From contig REEB01000108.1 of assembly GCA_007695295.1 (NCBI GenBank), forward strand, positions 1 through 47,498: a stretch of DNA of 47,498 bases, read 5' to 3'. The position numbers and the translations under genes are program-made. The notes under the pieces were generated by a model. That model was given only the letters and a program-made list of their open reading frames with translations. It did no database searches and was not told the DNA's origin. Source of the stretch: Puniceicoccaceae bacterium (GTDB lineage: Bacteria > Verrucomicrobiota > Verrucomicrobiia > Opitutales > Opitutaceae). Shown in pieces: positions 7,514 to 45,154 of this stretch; within the stretch, counting starts at the first letter, position 1, and every line of letters starts with the position of its first letter.

Positions 7514-9448
7514 ATGGTTGTCCTCCTCGCACGCTTTTGCGGCTGGGCGTTGGCCCGGTCCCCCGAATCCCTCGCCCGCGCCACCACCCGGGCCCTGGCC
7601 CGGTTCCTTTACCTCATCCTCGGCTGGCGCCGCCGCCTGCTCCTTTCCAACCTCCACCACGCTTACCCCGACCTCTGCCGTCGCGAACTCCGCCGGCTCG
7701 CCGTCACCTGCATGGAGCGCAGCGTGGAAACAGGCCTCTTCGCCGCCGCCATGCCGGGGTTTTCCCCCGCGCGCCTCCAAGCCATGGTTACGCTCGACGA
7801 GGAAACCCGCGGCCAGCTCCGGGCCGGCGCCGCTTCAGGAGAGCCCCACCTTATCCTCATCCCGCATCTCGGCTGCTGGGAGGCTCTCACCGCGCTGCCG
7901 CTCCTCTATGGGGGGTCCTTGCCCCGCATCGGGGTCGTCTACCGCCCCCTCGATCATGCCGGGCTCGAGCGGGAGATGATCCGCGTCCGCTCCCGCTTCG
8001 GCATCGAACTGCTCAGCCGCAAGGAGGGCTTCGCCCGCGCCGGCGCCCTCCTCGCCGAAGGCGGGGGGGTCGGGATTCTTTTCGACCAAAGCGCCGGTCG
8101 GCAGGGCACCCTTATCCCCTTCCTCGGCCGCATGGCCTCCGCCACCACTTTGCCCGGTCTGCTCGCCCAGAAATACCGCGCCCATATCTGGCTAATGTAC
8201 TTTCACCGCACTGGCTTCTGGCGTGGAAAGCTGCGCATGATTCCGAACGTCCTCCCGCCGGAGAAGGAGGCCGTTCTGATCGGGGCCAACCGCTGGTTGG
8301 AAACCATTCTCCGCACCGACCGCGACCAGGCCGCCTCCTGGCTCTGGCTTCACGACCGCTGGCGGACCCGGCCCGACCCTCAATCCCGCTTCAACCTCGG
8401 GGGCCGCCGCGGCGCCGTCGGCCTGGAGTCCTGCGGCCGCGGCAACCGCTTCTGGATCCGCCTGCCCAACTGGCTCGGCGATGCGATCCTCGTCGCCCCG
8501 CTCCTGCGGCTGCTCCGCGCAAGCCGGCCCGATGCCGCCCTCACCCTCATCGGCCCCGCCGCCTTCGCAGACTGGTTTCGCGCCACCGACCTGGCCGATG
8601 ACTACCTCCCCCTGCCGCCGCGCGGCCCGGGGCGTTTGCTCTGGTTCCGCCGGCTGCGTCACCGATATCCGGATACGTTTCTGATTCTGACTCAGTCCTT
8701 CCGCGGCGACCTCGAGGCCCGCCTCACGGCCTGCCCGGAGCGCATCGGCCTCCGCCTGCCGGGCCGGCCCCGCCCGCTCCTCACTCGTCGCTGGAAGCCA
8801 GTCCCCGATTTCGACTGGGACCGCACCCACCAGCTCCGCCTCCAGGAAGCCTTCTGGCGCGCCTTCGGTCTCCAAGGCGATCTCGACCTTTCGCCCCTCC
8901 GCATCCACGCGCCTCGCCAGCGCCATGAAATCGCCGTCTTCTGTGGCTCCAACAACCGCCCCGACAAACGCTGGCCCGCAGGGCATTGGGCCGCCCTCCT
9001 GGCGTCGCTGGCCCCCTCCCTGCCCGGCACCCGCTTCGTCTTGCTCGGCTCCGAGGCAGACCAATCTCTCGCCCAAACCGTTGCCGCGGCCGCCGCCGCC
9101 AATCTCCCCTTGGCCAACGAATGCGGACATCACCCGCTCGGAAGGCTCTGGCAGGAGCTGGACCGCTTCGCCGGCGTCCTCGCCATCGACTCCGGCGGCA
9201 TGCACCTCGCCAATGCCGCCGGCATCCCCACCGTCGCGCTCTTCGGCCCCACCAACCCGCTGCGCACCGGCCCCATCTTCCATGCCCCCCGGCTCGTCCT
9301 TCAGCCGCCGGGCTGCCCGGAGACGGGCGGCAGCCGGCTTGAGGTCCTGAATCCCTCCGAAGCAGCGGACCGGATCAAGCTTTTCCTGGCCGGCAGCCAC
9401 GGGACCACGGCCCCCGGGCCTTCCGACTCCGGAAATACCTCACCATAA
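7514..9448 (+). CDS. Fusion: lipid A acyltransferase (LpxL/HtrB family) + GT9 heptosyltransferase (WaaF-like)
   Basis: One 644-residue frame holds two enzymes. Residues ~1-290 are an LpxL/LpxM-type acyltransferase: an N-terminal hydrophobic region, then the catalytic HX4E motif at H118-E123 (HLGCWE), GVGILFDQ near 185-191 and a C-terminal WLWLHDRW. Residues ~312-640 are a second GT9 enzyme: RLPNWLGDAILVAPLL at 316-331 and IDSGGMHLANAAGIPTVALF then GPTNPLRTGP around 555-590. Each half is about full length for its family (~300 and ~330), and the frame is uninterrupted, so this is a real fusion rather than a readthrough artefact. Late acylation of Kdo2-lipid A and core heptose addition both occur at the cytoplasmic face of the inner membrane on the same acceptor, so a bifunctional enzyme is plausible. 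There is no Shine-Dalgarno before the ATG. Confidence 0.85.
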   Translation: MVVLLARFCGWALARSPESLARATTRALARFLYLILGWRRRLLLSNLHHAYPDLCRRELRRLAVTCMERSVETGLFAAAMPGFSPARLQAMVTLDEETRGQLRAGAASGEPHLILIPHLGCWEALTALPLLYGGSLPRIGVVYRPLDHAGLEREMIRVRSRFGIELLSRKEGFARAGALLAEGGGVGILFDQSAGRQGTLIPFLGRMASATTLPGLLAQKYRAHIWLMYFHRTGFWRGKLRMIPNVLPPEKEAVLIGANRWLETILRTDRDQAASWLWLHDRWRTRPDPQSRFNLGGRRGAVGLESCGRGNRFWIRLPNWLGDAILVAPLLRLLRASRPDAALTLIGPAAFADWFRATDLADDYLPLPPRGPGRLLWFRRLRHRYPDTFLILTQSFRGDLEARLTACPERIGLRLPGRPRPLLTRRWKPVPDFDWDRTHQLRLQEAFWRAFGLQGDLDLSPLRIHAPRQRHEIAVFCGSNNRPDKRWPAGHWAALLASLAPSLPGTRFVLLGSEADQSLAQTVAAAAAANLPLANECGHHPLGRLWQELDRFAGVLAIDSGGMHLANAAGIPTVALFGPTNPLRTGPIFHAPRLVLQPPGCPETGGSRLEVLNPSEAADRIKLFLAGSHGTTAPGPSDSGNTSP

Positions 9449-31246: not shown

Positions 31247-32401
31247 TCAAGGATCAAAGACCGCAATCTTTCCTTTGATCAGGTTCAACGAATACATATT
31301 GCGCAGTTTCTGCACCGTGAACGACGAAAGCCGCGAACCAACCTTCAGCAGGATCATCCCATCCGCCGTCGTCAGGTCCTGGGCGATGATCTGATCCTCC
31401 CGCAATTCGTCCGCGGACATCCATGACCACGCCAGGCAATCCGATCCGAAGGACTGCTCCTGTATGAATTTGCCGATGCAGACCGCCAGGTCCACGTCGC
31501 GGGTGGCACAGGTGCGCTGCACTTGGCCGACAGCTTTGGCGATGCTCTGCCCGCTGCGCTGCAGCTCGACGAGGTCGCGGCAGACGTTCAGCACCCGGCT
31601 CGAGAGCGGGATGTCCGATCCGCGGTGCTTGATCCGCTCCTCGAAAGAAAGGAAGGGCACATCCAGACCTTGGACGATCGCCGCCACCCCTTCCAAACGA
31701 GGGATCCGTTTCAGCATGCGCGCCCCTTCCACCTGGCTGGCCATCAGCATGTTTCGTTCTTTGGCATCTATTTTCTCCCCGGCGGAAACCCGCCCCAGGA
31801 GCGTTTCCGGCACCGCCAGCAGGCCGATCGTCGAAAGCATTGCGGAAACTTCCATTTCCCACTTCGGCAAATCCGGCCAAAGCACCGCCAGCGGGGCATA
31901 AAAATCACGCAGGGCCAGCGAGAGACCGAATCCCTCCGGATCTTTCGATCCAAGAATGTCCGCCAACAACCGCACCGCCCCATGCAAGGTGTTTTCCAAG
32001 AGCTCCCTTTCCGCATGGACCAGACGATACTGCTCGATGCCCTTTCGAACCGTCGCGATTATAAAATCGAAGTCGCACGGCTTGCAGAGAAATTGAAAGA
32101 TGTGACCCTCGTTGACGGCCTTGATCGCGGTCTGCTGATCGGCGTTCCCCGTCAGCATGATCCGCGTTGTATCCGGCACCTTCCGACGCAGAATCCGCAG
32201 CACCTCGAGACCGTTCATTTCCGGCATGTTCATGTCGACCACCACGACGGCAAAGGGACCGTCGGACTCGACCAGCTCCAAACCCTGCTTCCCGCTTTCA
32301 ACCGTGACGACTTCCATCTCGTCGCGGAGATGCCGCAGGTTACGCTCAATGGCCGAAAGGATGCCGACCTCGTCATCGACAAAAAGCACTTTAGCTTTCA
32401 T
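31247..32401 (-). CDS. Response regulator with degenerate HD-type output domain
   Basis: This 384-residue protein resembles RpfG-like regulators. Residues 1-122 are a receiver (VDDE, D56 in VVVVDMNMPEMNG, T84, K107 in CKPCD). From ~140 to ~250 the sequence follows the HD-GYP pattern. However, the metal-binding His-Asp of the HDIGK motif is replaced by S190-T191 (AMLSTIGLLAVPE), and the next His position is also lost (MASQVEGARMLKRIPRLEGV). No GYP motif is present. It should not hydrolyse cyclic di-GMP; it is more likely a phosphorylation-gated binding or scaffold protein. It overlaps the end of the REC-HDOD gene by 11 bases and is the last gene of a three-gene operon with that gene and a PAS histidine kinase. 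Confidence 0.82.
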   Translation of the reverse strand: MKAKVLFVDDEVGILSAIERNLRHLRDEMEVVTVESGKQGLELVESDGPFAVVVVDMNMPEMNGLEVLRILRRKVPDTTRIMLTGNADQQTAIKAVNEGHIFQFLCKPCDFDFIIATVRKGIEQYRLVHAERELLENTLHGAVRLLADILGSKDPEGFGLSLALRDFYAPLAVLWPDLPKWEMEVSAMLSTIGLLAVPETLLGRVSAGEKIDAKERNMLMASQVEGARMLKRIPRLEGVAAIVQGLDVPFLSFEERIKHRGSDIPLSSRVLNVCRDLVELQRSGQSIAKAVGQVQRTCATRDVDLAVCIGKFIQEQSFGSDCLAWSWMSADELREDQIIAQDLTTADGMILLKVGSRLSSFTVQKLRNMYSLNLIKGKIAVFDP

Positions 32402-33644
32402 GGTTGTATTCGCTCAATTGGTTCCAAAGGTTGTTCATCCCGGCGAGGCCGAACTTGAGACGGTCGCAATACTCTTGGTCGAGTTGAAGGTAGAGTTCCT
32501 GTGGTTTCGTCACCGTGTGTTGGCATCGGCTCCACGTCGCGGCCAAGTGAACCGGCAACAGCGGTCCGAAGAGGGCGGATCCTGTTTTGCTGGGATGATG
32601 GTGCAGTGCCACGCATTCGACGATCGGCTGCGGAAACCCCCACATTTGGAAAAGGTAGCCCCCGATTTCGGTGTGGTTGGCACCGCATCCGGCCGTCTCC
32701 AGCTCCAGTTCCTCCTCAAGGTTGCCCTGGACCAGTGCACTGCTTTGCAGAAACAGGTCCACGTGCTTGGCAAGGAACAAGAGCTTGCCGGCGTCCGCGA
32801 GCAATCCCCCGCTGAAAGCCACTTCCGATTCCTCCCGCTCCATCCCCAGCAGCTGGGCCAGGTTGCGGGCCAGCGTCGCCATCGAAATGGAACGGTTCCA
32901 GAGGTTCTCCAAGGGTTCGGAAACATCGCGCCCACAGGCGGCCGTGCCGTAGGTTTCCACAGCCAGGGCAAGCGCTTTGACCGTCTCCAACCCGATGAAC
33001 TGGATCGCCTCCGCCGGGCTCACCACTTTGCGCCGCAAGCCGAAATAGCCCGAGTTCGCCACCATCAGGATTCTCGTGGTCAGGCCCATGTCCTGCTCGA
33101 TGATTTTTCCGATGTCCTCCAGCGGACAGTCCGGGTTTTCCAAGGCCAGCATCAACTCCTGATAGAGCCGCGGAAACGACTTCAGCCCCGCCGAGTCGCT
33201 CACCACCTTCGACGCGGGATTCGCCTTCAGCATCGCCTGCAAACGCAGGGAGGACAGGATCCGCTCCATCAGCACCTCGGGATCACACGGCTTGGAGAGA
33301 TACTGGTGCGAGGAGCCCACACACCGGGTGATGAGGTCCTTGTCCGCCTTGCCTGAGAGGATGAAGCGGACGCAGGAGGGCCGCGTCAGCATGATCTTGT
33401 TGAGCAGCTCGGCCCCGTTCATTACCGGCATGTCCATGTCGGCGACGACGACGTCGTAATCTTCCGTCTGCATCCGCTCCAGAAGTTCGCCGGCACTCTC
33501 GAAATAATCCGCGCTCCAGTCTTCGGGGAGATCGCGCATGACCCGCCGCAATCCGTTGATAACCATCACTTCGTCGTCGACGAAGGCGATGTGCACGTTG
33601 CGCTGGATGGCGATGCCGCCGGCATCATCTGCAGTGTCGATCAT
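32391..33644 (-). CDS. REC-HDOD response regulator
   Basis: This 417-residue protein has a receiver domain (residues ~16-135, FVDDE, phosphoacceptor D69 in VVVADMDMPVMNG, SKPCD with the conserved Lys). An HDOD domain follows (~150-350): FPRLYQELMLALENPDC, VANSGYFGLRRKVVSPAEAI, AFSGGLLADAGKLLF and ALHHHPSKTGSALFG. HDOD domains are HD relatives without catalytic function that appear to organise signalling proteins. Its first codon overlaps the kinase stop by 4 bases (ATGA), and its end overlaps the next response regulator by 11 bases. Tight coupling implies stoichiometric co-production with kinase and REC-HD protein. It is likely phosphorylated by the upstream PAS kinase. Confidence 0.87.
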   Translation of the reverse strand: MIDTADDAGGIAIQRNVHIAFVDDEVMVINGLRRVMRDLPEDWSADYFESAGELLERMQTEDYDVVVADMDMPVMNGAELLNKIMLTRPSCVRFILSGKADKDLITRCVGSSHQYLSKPCDPEVLMERILSSLRLQAMLKANPASKVVSDSAGLKSFPRLYQELMLALENPDCPLEDIGKIIEQDMGLTTRILMVANSGYFGLRRKVVSPAEAIQFIGLETVKALALAVETYGTAACGRDVSEPLENLWNRSISMATLARNLAQLLGMEREESEVAFSGGLLADAGKLLFLAKHVDLFLQSSALVQGNLEEELELETAGCGANHTEIGGYLFQMWGFPQPIVECVALHHHPSKTGSALFGPLLPVHLAATWSRCQHTVTKPQELYLQLDQEYCDRLKFGLAGMNNLWNQLSEYNHES

Positions 33645-35137
33645 GACAGCGGAAGGTGAATATGGAAGGCTGTGCCCTGGCCGACTTCGGTGTCAAAGCT
33701 CAGGCGACCCCGGTGTTTTTCGCAGATGATATGGTAGGCGATCGATAGCCCCTGGCCGGTGCCCTGCCCCACGTCCTTGGTGGTGAAAAAAGGCTCCAGG
33801 ATGCGATCCCGGATCGATTCGGGGATGCCCATACCGGTGTCTGCGATGGTGATTTCAACTTCGCCGGCTTCCGCGAGGTGGCGCGTGGTGATGGTGATGG
33901 CCCCTTTTTCCTTCCACTCCTCCGCCTTGATCCGGTCCTGGATGGTGTGCGCGGCATTCACGATCAGATTGAGCAATACTTGGTTGATCTCGCCCAAGTT
34001 GCAGTCCACCAGCGGAAGTCGTTCGGCGAGGTCCAGTTTCATCTCCGCCGCATACTTCCACTCGTTTTTCGAAACCGTGACCGTGTTCTGAATCGCGTGA
34101 TTCAGGTCCGCTTTCGACTTGCTGTGCATCCCGGGGTGGCTGAACTCCTTCATCGCCTTCACGATGCCGGCGATGCGAGCGATGCCGTCGATGGCCTCAA
34201 GGATGGCCTGCGGAACTTCCTCGCGCGTAAAGGGATAGTCCAGCCGTGTCCATTGCTCCGTGATCACACCGGATAGCGGACCGTGCTCGCGCATGTGCTC
34301 GTCCAAACCGTCCAAAATCGCCAGGATCGCGCTGCAGCTTTTCTTCAGAAAGTGCAGGTTGTCGTTCACGAACTGCGTCGGTGAATTAATCTCGTGTGCG
34401 ATGCCCGCCGCCAGTTGCCCGATCGCTTCCATTTTGTTGGTGTGGCTGAGCTGCACTTGGAGCTGCTCCTTCTCGCGTACGAGCCGACTCCGGTGGGAAA
34501 TATCCTGCTTCATGGCGATGAACTGCCGGATGACACCATCCGGCCCCGGGATCGGGATCGCAATCATTTCCTCATCAAACAGGCTCCCGTCTTTGCGCCG
34601 GTTGATCAGTTCGCCCTTCCAAACCCGACCCTCCAGCAGGGTCTTGAAAATATCTTGGTAAAAGCACTCCGGATGCCGGCCGGACTTCAGAATACTGGCC
34701 CGCCGGCCCAAAAAATCACCGGGTTTGTACCCCGTCATTTCCTCGAAAGCGGGATTGGCCCACTCAATCACCCCGTCCGTATCCGTGATGATGACTGCAA
34801 AGGGGGCCGCCTGCAGCGCCCGGCATTGGACCAGGACCTGCTCGACCCCGGAGTGGAGCGCCGGCTTTTCCGAGAGCAGGACGTAGGTGCAGGACCCACC
34901 CCGGACCTCCAGCCCACCCGAGCAGACATCGAGGCGCCGCCTCTCTTCCCCCACGCCAGCGACCAGATACCCCTGTTCACTGGCGGCAAGGAGCCGGCCC
35001 GCCAGGTCCGCGTCCTCTCCAAGGCCGTAATCGGCAAGCAACTGGCATGCCCTGGGGTCGGAGAAGACACATTGCTTCTCCGAGTCCAGCAGCAGCAGGC
35101 CGACACTTGCGTGATGGTTCAAGACAGGGAATGACAT
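33641..35137 (-). CDS. PAS-domain sensor histidine kinase
   Basis: This 498-residue protein is apparently soluble, with no membrane helix. Residues ~1-95 are a weak PAS-like region. Residues ~105-215 are a clear PAS domain with PAC end (AVIITDTDGVIEWANPAFEE, MTGYKPGDFLGRRASIL, RRKDGSLFDEEM). The dimerisation helix has the phospho-His H248 (AAGIAHEINSPTQFVNDN). The HATPase_c domain has INQVLLNLIVNAAHT (N box), ITIADTGMGIP (G1) and GQGTGQGLSIAY (G2). The GIAHEIN(S/N)P type is common in kinases that regulate two-component cascades. It is the first gene of an operon with two response regulators, which are its likely targets. The start at 35137 leads into the divergent gap shared with the NAGGN operon. 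Confidence 0.88.
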   Translation of the reverse strand: MSFPVLNHHASVGLLLLDSEKQCVFSDPRACQLLADYGLGEDADLAGRLLAASEQGYLVAGVGEERRRLDVCSGGLEVRGGSCTYVLLSEKPALHSGVEQVLVQCRALQAAPFAVIITDTDGVIEWANPAFEEMTGYKPGDFLGRRASILKSGRHPECFYQDIFKTLLEGRVWKGELINRRKDGSLFDEEMIAIPIPGPDGVIRQFIAMKQDISHRSRLVREKEQLQVQLSHTNKMEAIGQLAAGIAHEINSPTQFVNDNLHFLKKSCSAILAILDGLDEHMREHGPLSGVITEQWTRLDYPFTREEVPQAILEAIDGIARIAGIVKAMKEFSHPGMHSKSKADLNHAIQNTVTVSKNEWKYAAEMKLDLAERLPLVDCNLGEINQVLLNLIVNAAHTIQDRIKAEEWKEKGAITITTRHLAEAGEVEITIADTGMGIPESIRDRILEPFFTTKDVGQGTGQGLSIAYHIICEKHRGRLSFDTEVGQGTAFHIHLPLS

Positions 35138-35272
35138 GGGCGGGCTGACACCTTGCGGCGTAACCCTTCATGCAACGGCATCGCAGCACGCGCGGTGAAG
35201 TAAAAGGGATGTCAATCGGGTTACCCTCGATGGGCTCCCGGCCTCCGACGGATCCGCCCTCCAAGACAACCT

Positions 35273-35301
35273 TTGACATCCCTTCCCGGGCGGCGTTTAG
35301 T
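35273..35301 (+). promoter_or_regulatory. Candidate promoter of the NAGGN/ABC operon
   Basis: TTGACA at 35273-35278 is a perfect -35 and TTTAGT at 35296-35301 is a 4-of-6 -10, with the ideal 17-base spacing. It lies 76 bases upstream of the amidotransferase start, in the 239-base divergent gap with the PAS kinase operon. No obvious operator was seen, so osmotic control, known for this pathway elsewhere, is not directly supported by sequence. Confidence 0.45.
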
Positions 35302-35376
35302 CAACCTAACCCTCTGTAGTGCCTTCAGTGCTACACTGTTTCTCTATCCATAAATCAACTACACAATCCATTCACC

Positions 35377-37152
35377 ATGTGCGGAATCTGCGGAGACATC
35401 CGATTCGGAGACCAACCGGCCGATCCGGCGGCCCTCGCCTCCATGTGCGGGGAAATGGTCCGGCGAGGACCCGACAGCGGCGGCCTCGCCCTCCAGGGGC
35501 GGGCCGGGCTCGGCCACCGCCGGCTCAAAATCATCGACCTCAGCGACGCCTCCCAGCAGCCGATGGTCGATGCCGGGCTCGGCCTCTCCATCGTCTACAA
35601 CGGCGCCATCTACAACTACCGCGAGCTTCGCACCGACCTCGAAGCCAAGGGCTACCGCTTCTTCAGCCAAGGCGACACCGAGGTCATCCTCAAGGCCTAC
35701 CACGCCTGGGGCGACGACTGCGTCACCCGCTTCAACGGCATGTGGGCCTTCTGTATCATCGAGCGTGATACAGGGAAAGCCTTCCTCAGTCGCGACCGCC
35801 TCGGCATCAAGCCGCTCTACTACGTCCGCGACCCCGGCGGCGTGCGCTTCGCCTCCAGCCTCCCCGCCCTCCTCCGCAGCGGCCCGGTCGACACCGGCAT
35901 CGATCCGGTCGCCCTCCACTACTACCTCACCTTCCACTCCGTCGTCCCGCCGCCGCACACCATCCTGCGCGGGGTCCGCAAGCTTCCCGCCGCCACCAAT
36001 CTCCTCATCGGGCCGGACGGATCCTGGAAGGAGCGCCGCTACTGGGACCTTTCCTTCGAGCCTCGCGAGGAATTCAGCACCTACACCGAGGCGGATTGGA
36101 AGGCCGGCACCCTCGAAGTCCTCCGCGCCGCCGTCAAACGCCGCCTCGTCGCCGATGTGCCCGTGGGCGTGCTCCTCTCCGGCGGGCTCGACTCCAGCCT
36201 CATCGTCGGCCTTCTCGCCGAGCAGGGTGCGGCCGGCCTGGAAACGTTTTCCATCGGCTTCGAAACCGTCGGCGAGGAAAAGGGCGATGAGTTCCAATAC
36301 TCGGACATCATCGTCGACCGCTTCCAAACCAGTCACCACAAGCTCTTCATCGACAGCCGCAAGGCCCTTCCCGCCCTCCGCGACTGCATCCGCCAGATGT
36401 CCGAGCCGATGGTCAGCCATGACAATGTCGGCTTCTACCTCCTCTCGCAGGAGGTGGCCAAATTCGTCAAAGTCGTCCAGAGCGGCCAAGGGGCGGATGA
36501 GATTTTCGCCGGTTACCACTGGTACCCGCCCATGCTCGAAAGCGACGATCCGGTCAGCGATTACGCCCGCGTCTTCTTCGACCGGGATTTCGAGGAATAC
36601 CGCTCCATCGTCCACCCCCGCTTCCTCCAGGAGAATCACGCCCGCAACTTCGTCGAGGAGCACTTCGCCCGCCCCGGCGCCCCCCGCCCCGTCGACCAAA
36701 CCCTCCGCATCGACACCCAGGTCATGCTGGTCGACGATCCCGTCAAGCGCGTCGACAACAACACCATGGCCGCCAGCCTCGAGGCCCGGGTGCCGTTTCT
36801 CGACTACGAGGTGGTCGAGTTCGCCGCCGCCGTCCCCGCCGAGCTCAAGGTCCGCGAGGGCGGCAAGTACATCCTCAAGGAGGCCGCCCGCGAGGTCATT
36901 CCCGCCGGCGTCATCGACCGGCCCAAGGGCTACTTCCCCGTCCCCGCCCTCAAATACCTCCGGGGCGAGTTTCTCAACCTCGCCCGCGATGCCCTCACCA
37001 ACCAGGCCGCCCGCGATCGGGGCTTGTTCCAACGCCCTTATGTCGACAAGCTGCTCGCCGATCCGGAAAAACACCTCACCCCCCTGAGGGGTTCCAAACT
37101 CTGGCAGCTCTCCCTGCTCGAACTCTGGCTCCAGACCCACGGTATCCAATAA
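35377..37152 (+). CDS. asnO: N-acetylglutaminylglutamine amidotransferase (asparagine synthase family)
   Basis: This 591-residue protein has Cys2 directly after the initiator Met (MCGICGDIR), the N-terminal nucleophile of class II glutamine amidotransferases, followed by the glutaminase domain to ~residue 200 (RRGPDSGG, YNGAIYNYREL). The synthase domain has the pyrophosphate loop LLSGGLDSSLIVGLL and GQGADEIFAGYHWYP. It is asparagine-synthase-like but belongs to the three-gene set (amidotransferase, GNAT/ATP-grasp, M42 peptidase) that makes NAGGN. In that pathway this enzyme amidates the terminal glutamine of N-acetylglutaminylglutamine with ammonia from glutamine. The assignment rests on that arrangement. 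It is the first gene of a seven-gene operon; the next gene starts 11 bases downstream. Confidence 0.88.
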   Translation: MCGICGDIRFGDQPADPAALASMCGEMVRRGPDSGGLALQGRAGLGHRRLKIIDLSDASQQPMVDAGLGLSIVYNGAIYNYRELRTDLEAKGYRFFSQGDTEVILKAYHAWGDDCVTRFNGMWAFCIIERDTGKAFLSRDRLGIKPLYYVRDPGGVRFASSLPALLRSGPVDTGIDPVALHYYLTFHSVVPPPHTILRGVRKLPAATNLLIGPDGSWKERRYWDLSFEPREEFSTYTEADWKAGTLEVLRAAVKRRLVADVPVGVLLSGGLDSSLIVGLLAEQGAAGLETFSIGFETVGEEKGDEFQYSDIIVDRFQTSHHKLFIDSRKALPALRDCIRQMSEPMVSHDNVGFYLLSQEVAKFVKVVQSGQGADEIFAGYHWYPPMLESDDPVSDYARVFFDRDFEEYRSIVHPRFLQENHARNFVEEHFARPGAPRPVDQTLRIDTQVMLVDDPVKRVDNNTMAASLEARVPFLDYEVVEFAAAVPAELKVREGGKYILKEAAREVIPAGVIDRPKGYFPVPALKYLRGEFLNLARDALTNQAARDRGLFQRPYVDKLLADPEKHLTPLRGSKLWQLSLLELWLQTHGIQ

Positions 37153-37163
37153 TTCACGACGCG

Positions 37164-38861
37164 ATGGCCGACCATGATAGTTCCGCCACCGGCGCTTCCC
37201 CGGGAGTCATCCTCGAATGCGGCTGGGGTCGCCTCCTCTTCGCCCACACGTTTCCCGATCCCGGCTCCGTCGCCGAAGCCATCCTCCGGGAAGAGCCCGA
37301 CCACCGAGACATCGCCTTCTACCTCACCGATCCCCACATCGTCCTCAACCACGCCCCCCAGCAGCTCTTCCTCGATCCCTCCCACACCTACCGCATCCGC
37401 TTCGAGCGCTACGCGCCGCGCTCCGCCACCGCCGCGGGTTTCTCCATCGGCCCGGTCGAGCGCCGGGAGGACATCGCCGAAATCAACCGCATCTACGGTC
37501 TCCATAAAATGGTGACCGTCGATGAAAAGGTCGTCTGGGCCAGCCGGGAGGACGAGCGGCTCGACTACGTCGTCGCCCGCTCGGACGAGACGGGATCCGT
37601 CCTCGGGGTCGCCCTCGGCGTCGACCACATGGCCAACTTCCAGGACCTCGAAAACGGCTCCAGCCTCTGGTCCCTCGCGGTCGATCCCCAGGCCCCCGTG
37701 CCCGGCATCGGCCAAGGGCTGGTCCGCTGGCTCATCGAGCACTACCAGCGGCGCGGCCGCTCCCAGCTCGATCTCTCGGTCATGCACACCAACAAGAGCG
37801 CCATTGCCCTTTACGAAAAGCTGGGCTTCGAGCGCGTGGCCGTCTTCGCCGTCAAAACCCGCAACTCCTACAACGAGCCTCTCTACGTCGGCGAGTTTCC
37901 CGACTCCGGCTACAATCCCTACGCCAAAATCATTATCGACGAAGCCCTCCGCCGCGGCATTGCCGTCGATCCGCTCGACCCGCCCCGGGGCTATTTCCGC
38001 CTCCGCCTCGGAGGGCGCCGGGTCACCTGCCGCGAGTCCCTGAGCGAACTCACCTCCGCCGTCGCCCTCAGCCGTTGCGACGACAAGGCCATCACCCGCG
38101 ACCTCCTCATCGAGGCCGGCCTGCGCGTCCCCGACCAGGTCGTCGTGAAATCTCCCGCCGAGGCCGAATCTTTTCTCGGCAAACACCACCGGATCGTGGT
38201 CAAACCCGCCCGCGGCGAGCAGGGGCAGGGCATCTCGGTGGATGTCCGCCGCCAGGATGAGCTCGAGGCCGCCCTCGCCGCCGCCGGCCGAATCTGCGAA
38301 ACCGTCCTGCTCGAGGAATTCGTCCAGGGCGAGGATCTCCGCATCATCGTCATCAACGGCGAGTCCGTCGCCGCCGCCGTCCGCCGCCCGCCCGAAATCT
38401 GCGGCACCGGCCGCCATACCATCCGCCAGCTCATCGAGTCCCTCAGCCGCCGCCGTGAGGCCGCCACCGGCGGCGAAAGCCACATCCCGATCGACGCCGA
38501 GACCGAGCGCTGCGTCCGCAACGAGGGCTTTTCCCTCGACGATACCATCGAAGAAGGCCGGCTCCTCGCCGTCCGCAAAACCGCCAACCTTCACACCGGC
38601 GGCACCATCCACGACGTCACCAGCCGGCTCCACCCGAAGCTTGCCGCCGCCGCCGTCCGCGCCGCCCAATGCCTGGAAATCCCCGTCGTCGGTTTCGACC
38701 TTATCGTCCCCTCCATCGAAGGTCCCGACTACGCCTTCATCGAGGCCAATGAGCGCCCCGGCCTCGCCAACCACGAGCCCGCCCCCACCGCCCAGAAGTT
38801 CATCGACTTCCTCTTCCCTCATACCGCGGAAAGCACCCGCGGCGAACCCGCCCGCTCCTGA
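37164..38861 (+). CDS. ngg: N-acetylglutaminylglutamine synthetase (GNAT + ATP-grasp)
   Basis: This 565-residue protein fuses two catalytic domains. The region around residues 90-250 is GNAT-like: LAVDPQAPVPGIGQGLVRWL (acetyl-CoA loop), LDLSVMHTNKSAIALYEKLG then FERVAVFAVKT. Residues ~290-550 form an ATP-grasp ligase: KAITRDLLIEAGLRVPDQVV, RIVVKPARGEQGQGISVDV, ILL-like EEFVQGEDLRIIVING and FDLIVPSIEGPDYAFIEAN, with metal-binding Glu and Asn at the end. Together they acetylate glutamine and join a second glutamine, giving N-acetylglutaminylglutamine. A 50-residue N-terminal stretch before the GNAT domain is unassigned. The next gene starts 4 bases after the stop, implying coupled translation. 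Confidence 0.88.
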   Translation: MADHDSSATGASPGVILECGWGRLLFAHTFPDPGSVAEAILREEPDHRDIAFYLTDPHIVLNHAPQQLFLDPSHTYRIRFERYAPRSATAAGFSIGPVERREDIAEINRIYGLHKMVTVDEKVVWASREDERLDYVVARSDETGSVLGVALGVDHMANFQDLENGSSLWSLAVDPQAPVPGIGQGLVRWLIEHYQRRGRSQLDLSVMHTNKSAIALYEKLGFERVAVFAVKTRNSYNEPLYVGEFPDSGYNPYAKIIIDEALRRGIAVDPLDPPRGYFRLRLGGRRVTCRESLSELTSAVALSRCDDKAITRDLLIEAGLRVPDQVVVKSPAEAESFLGKHHRIVVKPARGEQGQGISVDVRRQDELEAALAAAGRICETVLLEEFVQGEDLRIIVINGESVAAAVRRPPEICGTGRHTIRQLIESLSRRREAATGGESHIPIDAETERCVRNEGFSLDDTIEEGRLLAVRKTANLHTGGTIHDVTSRLHPKLAAAAVRAAQCLEIPVVGFDLIVPSIEGPDYAFIEANERPGLANHEPAPTAQKFIDFLFPHTAESTRGEPARS

Positions 38862-38865
38862 TGCC

Positions 38866-40089
38866 ATGACCGCCGCCGCCATCGACCGCCAATTCCTCCA
38901 GGACACCCTCCTGAAGTTTCTCGGCATCCACAGCCCCACCGGCTACACCGACCCAATCGTTCGCGAGGTCTGCGGCGAACTCGAGAAACTCAATATCCCT
39001 TTCGACCTCACCCGCCGCGGAGCCATTCGTGCCACCCTCCCCGGCAAACTCAAGGGCCCCGCCCGCGCCGTCGTCGTCCACCTCGACACCCTCGGCGCCA
39101 TGACCGCCTGCCTCAAGGACAACGGCCGCCTCGGCCTCGTGCCCGTCGGCACTTGGTCGGCCCGCTTCGCCGAAGGCGCCCGCGTCTCCATCTTCAGCGA
39201 CGCCATGATTTACCGCGGCTCCATCCTGCCGCTGAAGGCCTCCGGCCACGTCTACAACGAAGCGGTCGACACCCAGCCGGTGGCTTGGTCGAACCTCGAA
39301 GTCCGCGTCGATGAGCGCTCTCAGTCCCGCGCCGATCTCGACCGGCTCGGCATCCGCGTGGGCGACTTCATCGGGGTCGATGCCGGGGCCGAGTTCCTCC
39401 CCAACGGCTTTCTCGTCGCCCGCCACCTCGACAACAAGGCCGGCGTCGCCATGCTCCTCGCGGTCGCCGCCTTCATCCGCCGCAGTAGTATCCAGCTTCC
39501 CCTTACAACTTATCTCCTCTTCACCATCTCGGAAGAGGTCGGCATCGGCGCCTCCGCCGTCCTCCACGGCGATGTCGCCGAGATGGTCACCATCGACAAC
39601 GGCACCTGCGCACCCGGCCAGTCCTCCTCGGAATTCGGAGCCACCATCGCCATGGCGGACTCCTCCGGCCCTTTTGACTTCCACCTCACCCACCACCTTC
39701 TCCACCTCTGCGAGAAACACGGCATCCCCCACGTGCGCGACATTTTCCGCCACTACCGCTGCGACAGCGCCTCCGCCGTCGAGGCTGGCAACGATATCCG
39801 CACTGCCCTGACCGCCTTCGGGGTCGATGCCTCCCACGGCTACGAACGCACCCACCTCGATGCTCTTGATGCCGTCGGCCGGCTCGTCGTCGCTTACCTG
39901 CAGTCCGATCCGCTCCAGTCCGTCCGCGGAGACCTTGTCCGCGGCCTCAAACACTTTCCCTCCACCCGCACGGTCCCGGTCGGTCCGCTCCTGCACGAGG
40001 AAAAGACCCGCGTCGCCCAGGAACCGATCGATCCCTCCGCCACCACCGGCAAAAAGCCCGCGCGCGAAAAGTCGGCCCGGCCCTCCTGA
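38866..40089 (+). CDS. M42-family metallopeptidase of the NAGGN gene set
   Basis: This 407-residue protein has the cocatalytic metal site of M42/M28 aminopeptidases. VVVHLDTLGAM gives His and Asp, ARHLDNKAGVAM gives the bridging Asp, FTISEEVGIGASAV gives the Glu pair, and DNGTC follows. The amino half also has PTGYTDPIVREVCGELEK. Related proteins are always found beside asnO and ngg, where the peptidase is thought to degrade or recycle the osmolyte dipeptide. This particular role is inference. The start at 38866 is four bases past the ngg stop and agrees with the first conserved helix; a longer frame upstream runs through ngg and is a shadow. The stop at 40089 is one base before the next gene's GTG. 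Confidence 0.85.
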   Translation: MTAAAIDRQFLQDTLLKFLGIHSPTGYTDPIVREVCGELEKLNIPFDLTRRGAIRATLPGKLKGPARAVVVHLDTLGAMTACLKDNGRLGLVPVGTWSARFAEGARVSIFSDAMIYRGSILPLKASGHVYNEAVDTQPVAWSNLEVRVDERSQSRADLDRLGIRVGDFIGVDAGAEFLPNGFLVARHLDNKAGVAMLLAVAAFIRRSSIQLPLTTYLLFTISEEVGIGASAVLHGDVAEMVTIDNGTCAPGQSSSEFGATIAMADSSGPFDFHLTHHLLHLCEKHGIPHVRDIFRHYRCDSASAVEAGNDIRTALTAFGVDASHGYERTHLDALDAVGRLVVAYLQSDPLQSVRGDLVRGLKHFPSTRTVPVGPLLHEEKTRVAQEPIDPSATTGKKPAREKSARPS

Positions 40090-40090
40090 C

Positions 40091-41671
40091 GTGCCTTTCC
40101 GGATACCAGCCCGAATCCGCCTCACGCTCCTCACCACGCTCGCCGGCGCCGCCCTCGCCGCCTGCGCCCCCCACGCCGGCACCCCGCCGGACGCCATCGT
40201 CGTCGCCCAGGTCGCCGAGCCCCGCTCCCTCGATCCCCACGTCGCCACCGCCACCAACGACTTTCGCATCCTCGCCCACGTGTACGAGGGACTCGTGCGC
40301 TTCCAACCCGGCACCCTCGAGCCCGCCCCCGGGCTCGCCGCCAGCTGGAGCGTCTCCGCCGACGGCCGCCGCTACACCTTCCTCCTCCGCGAAGACGTGC
40401 GTTTTCACGACGGCACCCCCTTCGACGCCGAGGCCGTCCGTTTCAACTTCGAGCGCATGCTCGACCCGGAACATCCTTTCGCCGGCACCGGCCCGTTTCC
40501 GCTCGCTTTTTTCTTTTCCGCCATCGAGTCCATCGAAACTCCCGATGACCATACCGTCATCTTCGAACTCGACCGTCCCTACGCCCCGTTCCTCTCCAAC
40601 CTCGCCTACCCCACCGGCTTTCTCGTCTCGCCGGCCGCCGTCCGCGGGCACGGACGCAACTACGGTCGCCACCCCGCCGGCACCGGCCCCTACCGCTTCA
40701 CCGAGTGGGCGCGCCAGCGCTGGGTCAAACTGGAGCACTTCGACGACTACTGGGGCGAACCCGCCCGCATGCCCCGGCTCGTCTTCCGCCCCCTGCCGGA
40801 TGAAAACGCCCGCCTCACCGAGCTGCTCGCCGGTGGCGTCGATCTCGTGGTTGAAGCCCCCGCCGACATCATCGGCCACTTCCGCAATCAACCCGATTTT
40901 GTCGTTGCCGAGTCGGTCGGCCCCCACCTCTGGTTTCTCATCCTCAACACCCGCGAACCACCCTTCGACGACCTCCGCATGCGCCGGGCCGTCAACTACG
41001 CCATCGACAAGGACGCCATCGTCGAGGACCTGCTCCAGCGCACCGCCAGCGTCGCCCACGGCGTCATCCCCCGGGCTTTCGACTGGGCGATCGATCCGGA
41101 GCTAAATCCGTATCCATTCGATCCCGACAAAGCCCGAGAGCTCATCGCCGAGGCCGGCCACGCCGGCGCCACCATCCGGCTCCTCGCCACCGAAAGCGGC
41201 TCCGCCATGCTCGAACCGCTCCCCATGGCCGAAGCCATTCAGGCCGACCTCGCCCGCGTCGGCCTCACCGTCCGCATCGAGGTCTTCGAGTGGAATACGT
41301 TTCTCGCCCGGGTCAACGCCGGCCTCGAGGGCCAGGGCCACATGGCCCAAATGGCCTGGATGACCAATGACCCCGACACCTTGCCATCCCTCGCCCTCGC
41401 CTCCACCGCCCTGCCCGAGGACGGTGGCTTCAACTCCGGCTACTACCAGAACCCGGAACTCGACCGGCTCCTCGAGGATGCCCGCCGCTCCACCGATCCC
41501 ACCGAGCGCGGCCGCATCTACCACCGCATCGACCGCCTCGTCCACGAGGAGGCCCCGTTTCTCTTCCTCGCCAGCTGGCGCCAGAATGCCATCCACCACC
41601 GCGGCCTCCGGGACTTTGCCCTCGAGCCCTCCTTTCTCCTCAATCTCAGCCGGGTCGATAAACAGCCGTGA
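40091..41671 (+). CDS. Peptide/opine-type ABC transporter substrate-binding lipoprotein (family 5)
   Basis: This 526-residue protein starts with GTG. The first 24 residues are a lipoprotein signal with lipobox LAAC (C25). The rest is the family 5 binding fold of oligopeptide/dipeptide/nickel receptors: VYEGLVRFQPGTLEPAPGLA, WSVSADGRRYTFLLREDVRF, HDGTPFDAEAVRFNFERML, and C-terminal YQNPELDRLLEDARRSTDP. It should sit on the periplasmic side of the inner membrane and deliver a peptide-like ligand to the permeases encoded next. The start is supported by the 1-base gap to the peptidase stop and by the lipobox position; a longer upstream frame overlaps that gene. Its stop overlaps the permease GTG by 4 bases. 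Its place in the operon makes NAGGN or another small peptide the first ligand to consider. Confidence 0.87.
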   Translation: MPFRIPARIRLTLLTTLAGAALAACAPHAGTPPDAIVVAQVAEPRSLDPHVATATNDFRILAHVYEGLVRFQPGTLEPAPGLAASWSVSADGRRYTFLLREDVRFHDGTPFDAEAVRFNFERMLDPEHPFAGTGPFPLAFFFSAIESIETPDDHTVIFELDRPYAPFLSNLAYPTGFLVSPAAVRGHGRNYGRHPAGTGPYRFTEWARQRWVKLEHFDDYWGEPARMPRLVFRPLPDENARLTELLAGGVDLVVEAPADIIGHFRNQPDFVVAESVGPHLWFLILNTREPPFDDLRMRRAVNYAIDKDAIVEDLLQRTASVAHGVIPRAFDWAIDPELNPYPFDPDKARELIAEAGHAGATIRLLATESGSAMLEPLPMAEAIQADLARVGLTVRIEVFEWNTFLARVNAGLEGQGHMAQMAWMTNDPDTLPSLALASTALPEDGGFNSGYYQNPELDRLLEDARRSTDPTERGRIYHRIDRLVHEEAPFLFLASWRQNAIHHRGLRDFALEPSFLLNLSRVDKQP

Positions 41672-42615
41672 TCCTCTACATTCTAAAGCGGCTCGGCTTC
41701 GGCATCCCCGTCGTCATCGGGGTGTCCATCCTCGTTTTCCTGCTCATGGCGCTCATCCCCGGCGACCCGGCCCTCGCCCTTCTCGGCCCCTACGCGACCG
41801 AGGAAAACACCGAACAGATCCGCGAGCAACTCGCCCTCGACCAGCCCCTTCCCCACCGCTACGCCACTTGGATCGGCAACCTCGCCCGGGGCGACTTCGG
41901 CTACGCCTACAGTGTCGACCGCGCCGTCGCCGAGGAGGTCGCCGAACGCGCCGGCGCCACCCTCCTGCTCGCGGGAGCCGCTTTTTTCATCTGCGTGGTC
42001 CTGGGCATTGGAGTCGGGGTGGTGGCGGCGGCCCGCCAGTACAGTTGGGCCGACCGGCTGCTCTCGCTTTCCGTCATGGTCGGCATTTCCACCCCGGCTT
42101 TCTGGCTCGGGCTGGTGCTGATCGTGGTCTTCTCCATCCAACTGCGTTGGTTGCCTTCCGGCGGCATGGTCTCAATCGAGGGCGGCGGATCAGTCTTCGA
42201 CATCCTCTGGCATCTCGTTTTACCCGCGGTCACCCTCGGCTTCATCGCCGCGGCCGTGGTGGCCCGCTTTGTCCGCACCCAGATGCTCGAGGTCCTGCGG
42301 CAGGACTTCATCCGCACCGCCCGGGCCAAGGGCCTGAGCGAGGGCCGCGTCATCTGGGGCTACGCCCTCCGCGCAGGCATCGTCGCCACCCTCCCGGTGC
42401 TGGGCCTGCAAGCCGGCTTCGTCCTCGGCGGGGCCGTCTATGTGGAGACGATTTTCCAATGGCCGGGCATCGGGCGCATGCTCGTCACCGCCATCGCCCA
42501 GCGCGACCTGCTCCTCGTCCAGGGCGGCGTCCTCGTGGTGGCGGTTTTCTATGTGCTCGTAAATCTTCTGGCCGACGTGCTCCAGCACGCCCTCGACCCC
42601 CGCATCGAACGGTGA
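41668..42615 (+). CDS. Peptide-type ABC transporter permease (DppB/OppB family)
   Basis: This 315-residue membrane protein starts at GTG 41668, overlapping the upstream stop by four bases. It has six or so hydrophobic helices and the OppB-type N-terminus ILYILKRLGFGIPVVIGVS. The loop before the EAA region holds ARFVRTQMLEVLRQDFIRTA, then RAKGLSEGRVIWGYALR, the coupling helix contacting the ATPase. The C-terminal segment has GAVYVETIFQWPGIGRMLVT. It ends with DPRIER and overlaps the next gene by four bases (GTGA). It should pair with the permease half of the following fusion protein to form the transmembrane channel. Confidence 0.9.
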   Translation: MILYILKRLGFGIPVVIGVSILVFLLMALIPGDPALALLGPYATEENTEQIREQLALDQPLPHRYATWIGNLARGDFGYAYSVDRAVAEEVAERAGATLLLAGAAFFICVVLGIGVGVVAAARQYSWADRLLSLSVMVGISTPAFWLGLVLIVVFSIQLRWLPSGGMVSIEGGGSVFDILWHLVLPAVTLGFIAAAVVARFVRTQMLEVLRQDFIRTARAKGLSEGRVIWGYALRAGIVATLPVLGLQAGFVLGGAVYVETIFQWPGIGRMLVTAIAQRDLLLVQGGVLVVAVFYVLVNLLADVLQHALDPRIER

Positions 42616-44351
42616 AGGCCTTCTTCCGCAATCCCCTCACCGTCATCGGCTGCCTGCTTTTCGGAGGACTCGTCGGTCTCGCCCTGGCCGCCCCGTGGCT
42701 GCCCCTGGCCGATCCCAACGCCGCCGATTTGCGCAACCGCCTCGCCCCGCCGGGCAGCGAAAACCACCTCCTCGGCACCGATACGCTCGGCCGCGACATC
42801 CTCTCCCGCCTCGTCTGGGGCACCCGCGTCTCCCTCGCCGTTGCCGCCGCCGCCACCCTCGTCGCCGCTGTCATCGGCTCCCTCATCGGCCTGCTCGCGG
42901 GGTTCTTCCGGCGCTGGATCGACACCTTGCTGATGCGCGGGGTCGATATGGTCCTGGCTTTTCCTTACCTCATCCTCGCGCTCGCCATCGTCGCCGTGCT
43001 CGGGCCGGGCCTGCTCAACGCCCTTATCGCCATCGCCATCGTCAATATCCCGTTTTTTGCCCGCACCGTCCGCGGCACCACTGTATCCATAGCGCGGATG
43101 CCGTTTGTCGAAGCCGCCCGCCTCGGCGCCCAGCCACGGCGCCGCATCCTTTTCGCCGAGGTTCTGCCCAATGTCCTCCCGGTCATCATCATCGCCATGT
43201 CCACCACCCTGGGCTGGATGATCCTCGAAACCGCCGGGTTGAGTTTTCTCGGCCTCGGCGCCCAGCCACCCCAGGCCGATCTCGGCTCCATGCTCGCGGA
43301 CGGCCGCCGCGTCATGCTTGTCCATCCCCACGTCGGCCTCCTCCCGGGCGTGGCCATTCTCATCCTCGTCATCGGCATCAATCTCATCGGCGACGGCCTC
43401 CGCGACTGGCTCGATCCCCGCCTCGAAGGAGGCGCCCAGTCCGCCCCCGGAGCCGCCACCGCCGTCACCGCCAAGACCGCCGCCGCCGGGGAGCCGGAGC
43501 CGGAGGAGGCCGCCCCGGTGCTGGAAGTGAAGGATCTGCGTGTCGAGTTCGGCGAAGGCCGCAAACCCGTCGTCGCCGTCGATGGGGTCGGCTTCTCCCT
43601 CCGCCCCGGCGAGTGCCTCGGGCTGGTCGGCGAATCCGGCTCGGGCAAGTCCGTCACCGCCATGAGCCTGGCCCGCCTCGTCGCCTCGCCGCCCGGCCGC
43701 ATCACCCGAGGGGCGATTAGTATCGATGGGGTCGATACACTGAGGGCCTCAAACGAAGCGATCCGCCGGCTCCGTGGCGCCGCCATCGCCTACGTTTTCC
43801 AGAACCCCTTCGACAGCCTCCATCCGCTTATCCCGGTGGGCCGCCAAATCGACCATACCCTCGCCACCCATACCACCCTCAACTCCGGGGAGCGCCACAA
43901 GCGGATCCTCGACCTCCTCGACCGCGTCGCCCTCCCCGACCCCAAGGCCACCGCCCGCGCCCTCCCCCACCAGCTCTCCGGCGGCCAGTGCCAGCGGGTC
44001 GCCATCGCCATGGCTTTGGCCAACAATCCCAAAATCCTCGTCGCCGACGAGCCCACCACCGCCCTCGATGTCACCGTACAGAAGCGCGTCCTTGATCTCC
44101 TTGCCCGCATCCGCGAAGAGCACGGACTGGCCCTGCTCTTCATCAGCCACGATCTCGGGGTCGTCCGCGCCGTGGCCGACCGCATCATGGTCCTGCGCTG
44201 GGGCCGGGTCATGGAAGAGGGCGACGCCACCAAGCTGATCCGCAGCCCGAAAAACCCCTACACCCGCAAGCTCCTCGAAAGCAGCCCCCGCCTCGGCAAG
44301 GGACCCAAACAGGATCTCGGGCTCAGCCGGCCGGAGATCGACCCCGTATGA
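42612..44351 (+). CDS. Fused ABC permease (DppC/OppC type) and ATPase (DppD/OppD type)
   Basis: The 579-residue protein is one frame. Residues 1-~272 are a DppC/OppC permease: FFRNPLTVIGCLLFGGLVG, GTDTLGRDILSRLVWGTR and the coupling helix MPFVEAARLGAQPRRRILFA. Residues ~275-302 are an Ala/Pro/Glu-rich linker. Residues ~303-579 are an ABC ATPase: Walker A GESGSGKS at 340-347, LPHQLSGGQCQRVAIAMALA (signature), VADEPTTALD (Walker B) and ISHDLGVVRAVAD (switch His). In standard operons these are two proteins. Start GTG 42612 overlaps the upstream stop (GTGA), and the stop overlaps the next ATG by four bases. The hinge implies a defined 1:1 ratio and placement of this ATPase under its own permease. 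Confidence 0.88.
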   Translation: MKAFFRNPLTVIGCLLFGGLVGLALAAPWLPLADPNAADLRNRLAPPGSENHLLGTDTLGRDILSRLVWGTRVSLAVAAAATLVAAVIGSLIGLLAGFFRRWIDTLLMRGVDMVLAFPYLILALAIVAVLGPGLLNALIAIAIVNIPFFARTVRGTTVSIARMPFVEAARLGAQPRRRILFAEVLPNVLPVIIIAMSTTLGWMILETAGLSFLGLGAQPPQADLGSMLADGRRVMLVHPHVGLLPGVAILILVIGINLIGDGLRDWLDPRLEGGAQSAPGAATAVTAKTAAAGEPEPEEAAPVLEVKDLRVEFGEGRKPVVAVDGVGFSLRPGECLGLVGESGSGKSVTAMSLARLVASPPGRITRGAISIDGVDTLRASNEAIRRLRGAAIAYVFQNPFDSLHPLIPVGRQIDHTLATHTTLNSGERHKRILDLLDRVALPDPKATARALPHQLSGGQCQRVAIAMALANNPKILVADEPTTALDVTVQKRVLDLLARIREEHGLALLFISHDLGVVRAVADRIMVLRWGRVMEEGDATKLIRSPKNPYTRKLLESSPRLGKGPKQDLGLSRPEIDPV

Positions 44352-45154
44352 GCGACTTGGTCTTCCAAGTTAAGGGCCTCCACAAGACCTTCGGCCGGAA
44401 GGGCCTGCTCCGCCGCGGGCGGGTCGTGCAGGCCCTCCACGGCGTCGGCTTCGAGGTGGCGGAAGGCGCCGCCCTCGGCGTGGTCGGCGAATCCGGCAGC
44501 GGCAAATCCACCCTCGCCCGCATCCTCGTCGGCTTGGAAAAGCCCGACCGCGGCACCATCACTTTCAAGGGTCGGCCGCTCGGGGATTGCCTCCGCGAGC
44601 CCACCGCCTTTTACCGCCAGGTCCAGTTTGTCTTCCAAAATCCCTACGCCGCCTTCAACCCCCGCAAACGCGTCGGCGCCATTCTCGACACCCACCTCCG
44701 CCACCTCACCGACCTCAAGGCCCCCGCCCGGCGCGATCGTATCCGGGAAATAATGACAGCCACCCAGCTCGACGACGGACTGCTCCGCCGCTACCCCCAC
44801 TCTCTCTCGGGCGGCCAGGCCCAGCGGCTCTCCCTCGCCCGCGCCCTCCTCAGCCGACCCGCGGTCGTCGTCATGGATGAGCCCGTCTCCGCCCTCGATG
44901 TCTCCGTGCAGGCCCGCATCCTCCGCCTCCTCCGCGACTTGCGGGAGTCTTTTTCCTTCACCCTCGTCTTCATCAGCCACGACCTCGCCGTGGTCGACTA
45001 CCTCTGCGGTGAGACCATTGTCATGCGCGAGGGTGAGATCCAGGAGCGGGGACCGACCGCGGCTCTCCTCAGCCAGCCCGCAACGTCCTATACCCTCGAA
45101 CTCCTCGAGGCCTGCCGCTCCGTCGAGGCCGGCACCGGCCTTTCCCTGCGCTGA
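44348..45154 (+). CDS. Peptide-type ABC transporter ATPase (DppF/OppF family)
   Basis: This 268-residue ABC ATPase has GESGSGKSTLARILVGLEKP (Walker A), the DppF-like VQFVFQNPYAAFNPRKRVGA (Q-loop), YPHSLSGGQAQRLSLARALL (signature), VMDEPVSALDVSVQARIL (Walker B) and ISHDLAVVDYLC (H-loop). It lacks much of the C-terminal zinc-finger-like extension of some family members but is otherwise full length. Its ATG overlaps the stop of the permease-ATPase fusion by four bases. The two ATPases would form the heterodimer of the importer. It is the last gene of the operon, 95 bases before the next start; the palindrome AAGGGCGCCCTT at 45156-45167 is not a convincing terminator. Confidence 0.9.
   Translation: MSDLVFQVKGLHKTFGRKGLLRRGRVVQALHGVGFEVAEGAALGVVGESGSGKSTLARILVGLEKPDRGTITFKGRPLGDCLREPTAFYRQVQFVFQNPYAAFNPRKRVGAILDTHLRHLTDLKAPARRDRIREIMTATQLDDGLLRRYPHSLSGGQAQRLSLARALLSRPAVVVMDEPVSALDVSVQARILRLLRDLRESFSFTLVFISHDLAVVDYLCGETIVMREGEIQERGPTAALLSQPATSYTLELLEACRSVEAGTGLSLR

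Follow-up and report, generated by a model that had tools for sequence, protein, structure and literature searches.

The window considered here is a whole contig of 47,498 nucleotides (REEB01000108.1) from an assembly of a Puniceicoccaceae bacterium (GCA_007695295.1; 4.6 Mb, 98.55% complete). Between positions 35377 and 45154 it carries seven genes on a single strand (+), in which the genes for the osmolyte N-acetylglutaminylglutamine amide (NAGGN) run directly into those of an ATP-binding cassette (ABC) importer. The first four genes are separated by gaps of 11, 4 and 1 bases, and three overlaps of 4 bases each follow. This tight order had been proposed in an earlier reading of the bare sequence (hereafter the original prediction), and the coordinates match it exactly. 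The features are listed below, with NCBIfam or Pfam models in support.

35271..35278 (+): CTTTGACA, -35-like element of a probable promoter, conserved upstream of asnO
35377..37152 (+): asnO, N-acetylglutaminylglutamine amidotransferase; TIGR03104, 966 bits, cut-off 570
37164..38861 (+): ngg, N-acetylglutaminylglutamine synthetase (GNAT plus ATP-grasp); TIGR03103, 808 bits, cut-off 569
38866..40089 (+): M42-family metallopeptidase of the NAGGN system, a probable turnover hydrolase; TIGR03106, 540 bits, cut-off 398; found next to the importer on ngg-free plasmids
40091..41671 (+): family-5 solute-binding lipoprotein, "type A"; PF00496 (SBP_bac_5), 317 bits
41668..42615 (+): permease 1 (DppB/GsiC-like), GTG start; PF00528 (BPD_transp_1), PF19300
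42612..44351 (+): permease 2 fused to ATPase 1, GTG start; PF12911, PF00528, PF00005 and PF08352 in one frame
44348..45154 (+): ATPase 2 (DppF-like); PF00005 (ABC_tran), GESGSGKS and LSGGQ

The adjacent asnO, ngg and M42 genes, each above its NCBIfam equivalog cut-off, have the makeup of a NAGGN biosynthesis cassette. The other four form a complete family-5 ABC set with one PF00496 protein, two BPD_transp_1 domains and two ABC_tran domains, and the predicted importer with its permease-ATPase fusion is thereby confirmed by Pfam. Metal-ligand-like motifs were found in the M42 protein, and Walker A and LSGGQ motifs in both ATPases; we take these motifs to have their customary roles. The gene of the binding protein has a GTG start and encodes a lipobox-like LAAC (judged by eye). 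The protein itself is under the cut-off in all 11 NCBIfam models that it matches, the top scores being 226 of 594 bits for GsiB, 219 of 393 for NikA and 212 of 1005 for DppA, while Dpp, heme-binding (Hbp) and YliB/GsiB proteins are among its nearest relatives of solved structure. Judged by eye from the alignment, a lipoprotein look (AC box) is shared by binding proteins of the window's order (window 40091, L045 and L046), and proteobacterial type A binding proteins look soluble and periplasmic. Scans with Rfam and for tRNAs gave no match inside the seven-gene block, and the phage search gave a single match of 44 bases.

Several known systems resemble parts of this arrangement. The asnO-ngg-M42 genes of Pseudomonas aeruginosa (PA3459-PA3461) belong to the same three families and stand in the same order; unlike that cassette, the window has four importer genes directly after, and no MarR gene was noticed adjoining its asnO. 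E. coli DppABCDF is likewise built from a family-5 binding protein, two permeases and two ATPases, but in the window permease 2 and ATPase 1 are fused, the ligand-binding residues R383 and D436 of DppA are absent and the DppA equivalog cut-off is missed. The glutathione importer GsiABCD provides the best NCBIfam model for the binding protein, and GsiB also lacks both end-binding residues; the window protein nevertheless stays well under the GsiB cut-off and lies in a separate clade, with GsiB grouping with L128.

How often the importer accompanies the NAGGN genes was surveyed in 387 genomes of the phylum, 15 of which have ngg above the cut-off. A family-5 binding protein lies 3' of the NAGGN genes, on the same contig and strand, in five of these 15 (the window's genome, G119, G158, G115 and G294), and within the window's order the importer is linked in 3/9 ngg genomes. 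Based on the 58 family-5 binding-protein matches in the 15 genomes, chance would place such a protein within 5 kb of ngg in 0.14 genomes, against 5/15 observed (binomial 2e-7, kinship ignored). All four importer proteins of G119 and G158 are orthologous to those of the window, with binding proteins 67-74% identical, and this importer is what we call type A. It occurs in 3/387 genomes, every time within a NAGGN operon, and the next best match is 35% identical; at most three candidates were scored per genome, and more distant copies may escape. A second importer, type B, is found in G115, G294 and G315, with a binding protein 33-34% identical to the window's, and is located directly 3' of M42 in the first two. 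Together with an unlinked protein of the ngg-bearing G157 it forms a clade of its own (100/100) apart from type A, in a tree whose deep forks are weak. In G315 the contigs break between M42 and the expected importer site, leaving linkage undecidable, and a G115-type importer starts near the end of a different contig; in G242 the contig stops within M42.

The linkage extends beyond the phylum. Overall, type A orthologues linked to NAGGN genes have binding proteins 53-74% identical to the window's. In Shinella sp. HZN7 the order is M42, binding protein, permease, fusion, ATPase, GntR/FadR regulator, asnO and ngg, and plasmids of Sinorhizobium have the same order from the binding protein to ngg (importer-GntR-asnO-ngg). 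The importer on pSymB of S. meliloti, around SMb20478, is orthologous to that of the window, has the same fusion and a binding protein 56-57% identical, and adjoins asnO-ngg as in the window; we take SMb20481-20482 to be the asnO-ngg tags. It differs in having a GntR/FadR gene between importer and asnO, an M42 gene upstream at a strain-variable distance, and a binding protein without a lipobox (by eye). The association in S. meliloti was already readable from public annotation, and the permease-ATPase fusion is also annotated in Shinella, Sinorhizobium, Klebsiella, Agrobacterium and Devosia. An excerpt of PMC3687685 lists the fusion gene SMb20478 as a putative dipeptide ABC transporter permease and ATP-binding protein, and reports a screen in which the regulator ChvI bound a fragment of this gene. 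In the ngg tree, the linked rows have unlinked neighbours: alphaproteobacteria around those of the Rhizobiaceae, and relatives around the window's three. A single clade of the five linked ngg rows is rejected (p-AU 3.6e-38), and therefore type A linkage either arose twice or was gained once and lost many times.

Importers were also found in company with M42 alone. Six further annotated plasmid importer loci were examined, and in three of them, on plasmids of Klebsiella michiganensis, Agrobacterium salinitolerans and Devosia neptuniae, an operon runs from binding protein through permease, fusion, ATPase and a regulator of the GntR/FCD type to an M42 gene annotated as "osmoprotectant NAGGN system M42 family peptidase". 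Overlaps of 4 bases, from the permease through M42, are found in 2/3 of these cassettes. Their M42 proteins score 457, 438 and 447 bits against TIGR03106, all three above the cut-off of 398, and all retain the HLDT, HLDD and EE motifs. The other three loci have no M42 within the stretch examined; one has an amidase, one a DUF1028 gene and one neither. Across plasmid records M42 (E 1e-70) is present in 92 and ngg (E 1e-120) in 84, and the M42 records absent from the ngg set come from Klebsiella (5), Enterobacter (4), Devosia (1) and Agrobacterium (1), one more M42-bearing group being left unnamed in this tally. The nine Klebsiella and Enterobacter records share one near-identical importer-M42 element, which seems to span the record start in two of them, and they are thus counted as one case. 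At least 80% of the 7.6 kb Klebsiella cassette is found in one place in 8 plasmid records and in 0/5426 E. coli genomes; short E. coli matches cover just its first 70-87 bases and are probably insertion-sequence related. In the K. michiganensis plasmid pD (L151, 6328-14232) the cassette sits on a conjugative plasmid and is flanked on both sides by IS26, with a short DUF1028 gene.

These plasmids bear on the role of the peptidase. According to the literature, AsnO and Ngg carry out NAGGN synthesis in S. meliloti and have homologues in P. aeruginosa; an excerpt of PMC8070244 likewise has Ngg and AsnO making NAGGN (after Sagot et al. 2010) and labels the M42 member of the cassette as a hypothetical glutamyl aminopeptidase. 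On plasmids that have neither asnO nor ngg, M42 still follows the importer, and for this reason turnover is the better reading of its role, rather than a third part in synthesis. The synthesis trio of the original prediction is retained as far as its family assignments go, all three genes being above NAGGN cut-offs, and revised for M42. It may be that the type A importer and M42 form a dedicated NAGGN capture-and-hydrolysis module, with which producers recover leaked osmolyte and non-producers, including hosts of the conjugative Klebsiella and Enterobacter plasmids, feed on the NAGGN of others; we offer this tentatively, as a suggestion whose chances fall somewhat short of even.

An alternative is that the neighbourhood is incidental or due to read-through, with an importer unrelated to NAGGN. 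This would sit well with the 8/15 phylum ngg loci that have no importer and with the alphaproteobacterial importers, 0/13 of which are linked (below). It leaves unaccounted for the tight overlaps, the excess of linked loci over the chance expectation, the two importer families, the two separate linked lineages and the M42-importer operons on plasmids without ngg, and we regard it as very improbable. The linkage of importer and NAGGN genes is probably not incidental, and the functional coupling put forward in the original prediction is upheld: with recurrent linkage, two importer families and two separate linked lineages for type A, the ABC genes probably belong with the NAGGN genes.

With the linkage accepted, the nature of the ligand can be approached through the binding pocket. 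In the dipeptide-binding protein DppA, R383 and D436 bind the ends of the dipeptide, D436 holding the free amino end (excerpt of PMC12136057). An alignment was made of 22 type A proteins (two rows being S. meliloti strains), four of type B and 24 other family-5 proteins, with DppA, GsiB and NikA. The 24 comparison proteins are mostly the best phylum matches to the query and include two paralogues from the window's genome; the fragmentary matches L005 and L006 were left out, and the own-genome matches L004, L007, L008 and one without a locus have no separate rows in the BLAST-based set. The equivalent of D436 is retained in 0/22 type A and 0/4 type B proteins and in 22/24 of the others. At this site type A has N in 20 of 22 proteins and otherwise H or T, and type B has a gap, while the R383 site is G in all 26 type A and B proteins. 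The ends of NAGGN are capped, the charged termini of a dipeptide being replaced by acetyl and amide groups, and the loss of D436 is therefore as expected; the comparison with Dpp that had been suggested thus came out as it should for a capped ligand, with both equivalents missing. The type A sites GGSGMLDP and MAWMTN-DPDT are nearly invariant, and among six further type A proteins 6/6 match the first pattern and 5/6 the second (the exception is Nitratireductor).

This same site speaks to the idea that the importer takes up di- or oligopeptides in general, supplying glutamine for NAGGN synthesis. The presence of Dpp, Hbp and YliB/GsiB among the closest solved relatives and the annotation of the fusion as "dipeptide/oligopeptide/nickel" agree with such a role, but the Asp for the free amino end is lost in 22/22 type A proteins, while four Dpp-like proteins of the same phylum retain both Arg and Asp; we consider general peptide uptake improbable. 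The original prediction had offered two guesses, salvage of NAGGN and uptake of ordinary peptides as building material, and the first is the better of the two, the second finding no support in view of the missing Asp. The permeases add little. Permease 1 of the window has G-P-Y where DppB has G-E41-R42, and this scoop reads G-[PSA]-[YFW] in 21/21 type A permeases, which is weak evidence since Dpp-like controls whose binding proteins have R and D also lack E-R. A nickel ligand was named at the outset as a case that would undo the linkage. The permease and ATPase do resemble the Opp/Nik families, but of the NikA residues H416, R97 and R137, presumably the functional ones of the nickel importer, R97 and R137 are retained in 0/22 and H416 in 1/22 type A proteins. 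The window protein has D, P and a gap at H416, R97 and R137, respectively, and its NikA score is under the cut-off, so we give nickel or another metal complex as ligand almost no credence.

Of the rival readings, the strongest gives the importer a wider class of ligands. It might bring in capped or amide molecules of another kind, namely N-acyl amino acids, N-carbamoyl amino acids, ureides or amidated peptides, to supply nitrogen or to act as osmoprotectants, in which case the NAGGN linkage would reflect co-regulation under osmotic or nitrogen stress, or the supply of glutamine. This view draws on type A importers that stand apart from ngg. Among 385 alphaproteobacterial genomes type A is found in 13 and ngg in 24; five have both, against 0.8 expected (p 6e-4, kinship ignored), an excess that speaks for the NAGGN reading. 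A gammaproteobacterial sample yielded type A in 1/350 genomes. At L100, the one gammaproteobacterial locus among the 16 unlinked type A loci surveyed, no permease was found adjoining the binding protein. A FadR/GntR-type regulator adjoins the importer at 10/16 unlinked type A loci, and a Rahnella locus has a DUF1028 and a FadR gene and no M42 within the stretch examined. DUF1028 found no mention in the open literature searched.

Much in this survey weighs against an importer devoted to NAGGN. Type A adjoins ngg in 0/13 of the alphaproteobacterial genomes that have it, eight of the 13 lack ngg, and 6/8 of these also lack a TIGR03106 M42; the other two have one, above the cut-off in one case and below it in the other, and neither lies near the importer. 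A hydantoinase/carbamoylase-type amidase adjoins the importer at 9/16 unlinked type A loci and a DUF1028 gene at 6/16 (at these loci 4 amidases, 2 DUF1028 proteins and 1 regulator were named by HMM and the rest by BLAST clustering), and an amidase and an amidohydrolase lie near two further unlinked loci. Such surroundings fit the import and hydrolysis of amides, whether the capped or ureide ligands differ from NAGGN or span a broader set, and do not single out NAGGN. Seen from the side of ngg, most loci examined are without the importer: it is absent near ngg at 8/15 phylum loci (G157, G256, G134, G131, G336, G163, G228 and G128), at 11/11 full-length ngg loci of a further set and at 23/23 alphaproteobacterial ngg loci (three of them on contigs under 10 kb), the partial ATP-grasp match L020 being left out of the counts. 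Conservation of the importer beside NAGGN genes thus holds for 5/15 phylum loci, Sinorhizobium and Shinella, and does not extend to a general rule. In Sinorhizobium, M42 is loosely placed upstream of the importer: the distance is about 1.6 kb in S. meliloti ml47 and 9.5 kb in strain 2011 of that species, and it reaches 19 kb in S. medicae WSM1115. The absence of ngg in Klebsiella, Enterobacter, Devosia and Agrobacterium is a statement about plasmid records and leaves out host chromosomes. Finally, the R383 equivalent is also absent in 20/24 other family-5 proteins (the four that keep it are Dpp-like), so that only D436 discriminates, and GsiB and NikA lack the equivalents of both; the loss thus disfavours free peptides and is no proof of NAGGN. 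The pocket residues would suit any ligand without free ends.

Three observations stand beside these counts. The ngg loci of Shinella sp. H4-D48, Haematobacter, Azospirillum brasilense and Skermanella are likewise not linked to the importer. In the Sinorhizobium plasmid records compared, the distance from M42 to the importer varies while importer, asnO and ngg stay together, and insertions may have pushed M42 away. The two alphaproteobacterial genomes with type A and a NAGGN-type M42 that is not adjacent (G694 and G510; 551 bits, and 370 bits, under the cut-off) have no ngg at E 1e-100.

A precedent for the wider class is Prb of S. meliloti, reportedly an Opp-like importer of the osmoprotectant proline betaine. 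The pSymB importer was itself considered as a candidate for Prb and rejected, since PrbA is SMc01642 (excerpt of PMC4941405), a different locus tag. What the wider class leaves unexplained is the M42 gene behind the importer on ngg-free plasmids, given that its family, TIGR03106, is defined by the NAGGN cassette, and also why a second importer family is joined to NAGGN genes. For these reasons we hold it to be unlikely, while taking it more seriously than any other alternative.

On balance we favour, with slightly better than even confidence, an operon that makes the osmolyte NAGGN and also imports and recycles it. The products of ngg and asnO would build NAGGN from glutamine. The lipoprotein would capture NAGGN outside the inner membrane, whether it escaped from the same cell or came from neighbouring ones, and the two permease and two ATPase domains would carry it inward, where the M42 metallopeptidase would hydrolyse it when turnover is due. 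Genes for synthesis, import and hydrolysis would be expressed from one promoter. That NAGGN is the ligand, that M42 is its hydrolase and which way the benefit runs we infer from sequence comparison. If this is true, NAGGN gains a transporter and a breakdown enzyme, and an osmolyte thought private would be worth importing for bacteria unable to make it. On the more tentative reading of a dedicated capture-and-hydrolysis module, NAGGN would be a shared good with its own scavengers, and M42 the degradative enzyme of the cassette. Among the matches listed, the titles and abstract openings of open PMC papers do not name a NAGGN importer; Sagot et al. 2010 lies outside that set and may mention a neighbouring transporter.

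The region upstream of asnO is in keeping with a common promoter. The element CTTTGACA lies 75-124 bases 5' of asnO in 9/9 loci of the window's order, with a chance per locus of at most 0.8% (Markov resampling), and is found in 0/26 other asnO loci compared, one of which carries TTTGACA. It makes a good -35 element and probably functions as part of a promoter. Within the block the intergenic space before the importer genes is almost too small for a promoter of their own, and cotranscription of all seven genes may be presumed. An inverted repeat, TGTAGTGC-CTTCA-GTGCTACA (35315-35335), lies about 40 bases 5' of asnO, between the -35-like element and the start codon, and could be an operator; in the last 140 bases 5' of asnO in G119 and G158 it is not evident by eye. 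Divergently oriented at 31247-35137 (-) is a block encoding a PAS histidine kinase, a response regulator with an HDOD domain and a response regulator with an HD domain, with overlapping ends. As conserved partners of the operon these regulators were rejected: there is no match upstream of asnO in G158, the 1.6 kb available in G119 was all that could be searched there, and the sole match, a weak one, is in L055.

Elsewhere in the window two further frames combine different domains. At 7514-9448 (+) a family 9 (heptosyltransferase-like) glycosyltransferase domain comes after a lipid A acyltransferase domain in one frame, and at 10162-12987 (-) a frame of 941 residues combines a spermine/spermidine synthase domain with TPR repeats after it.

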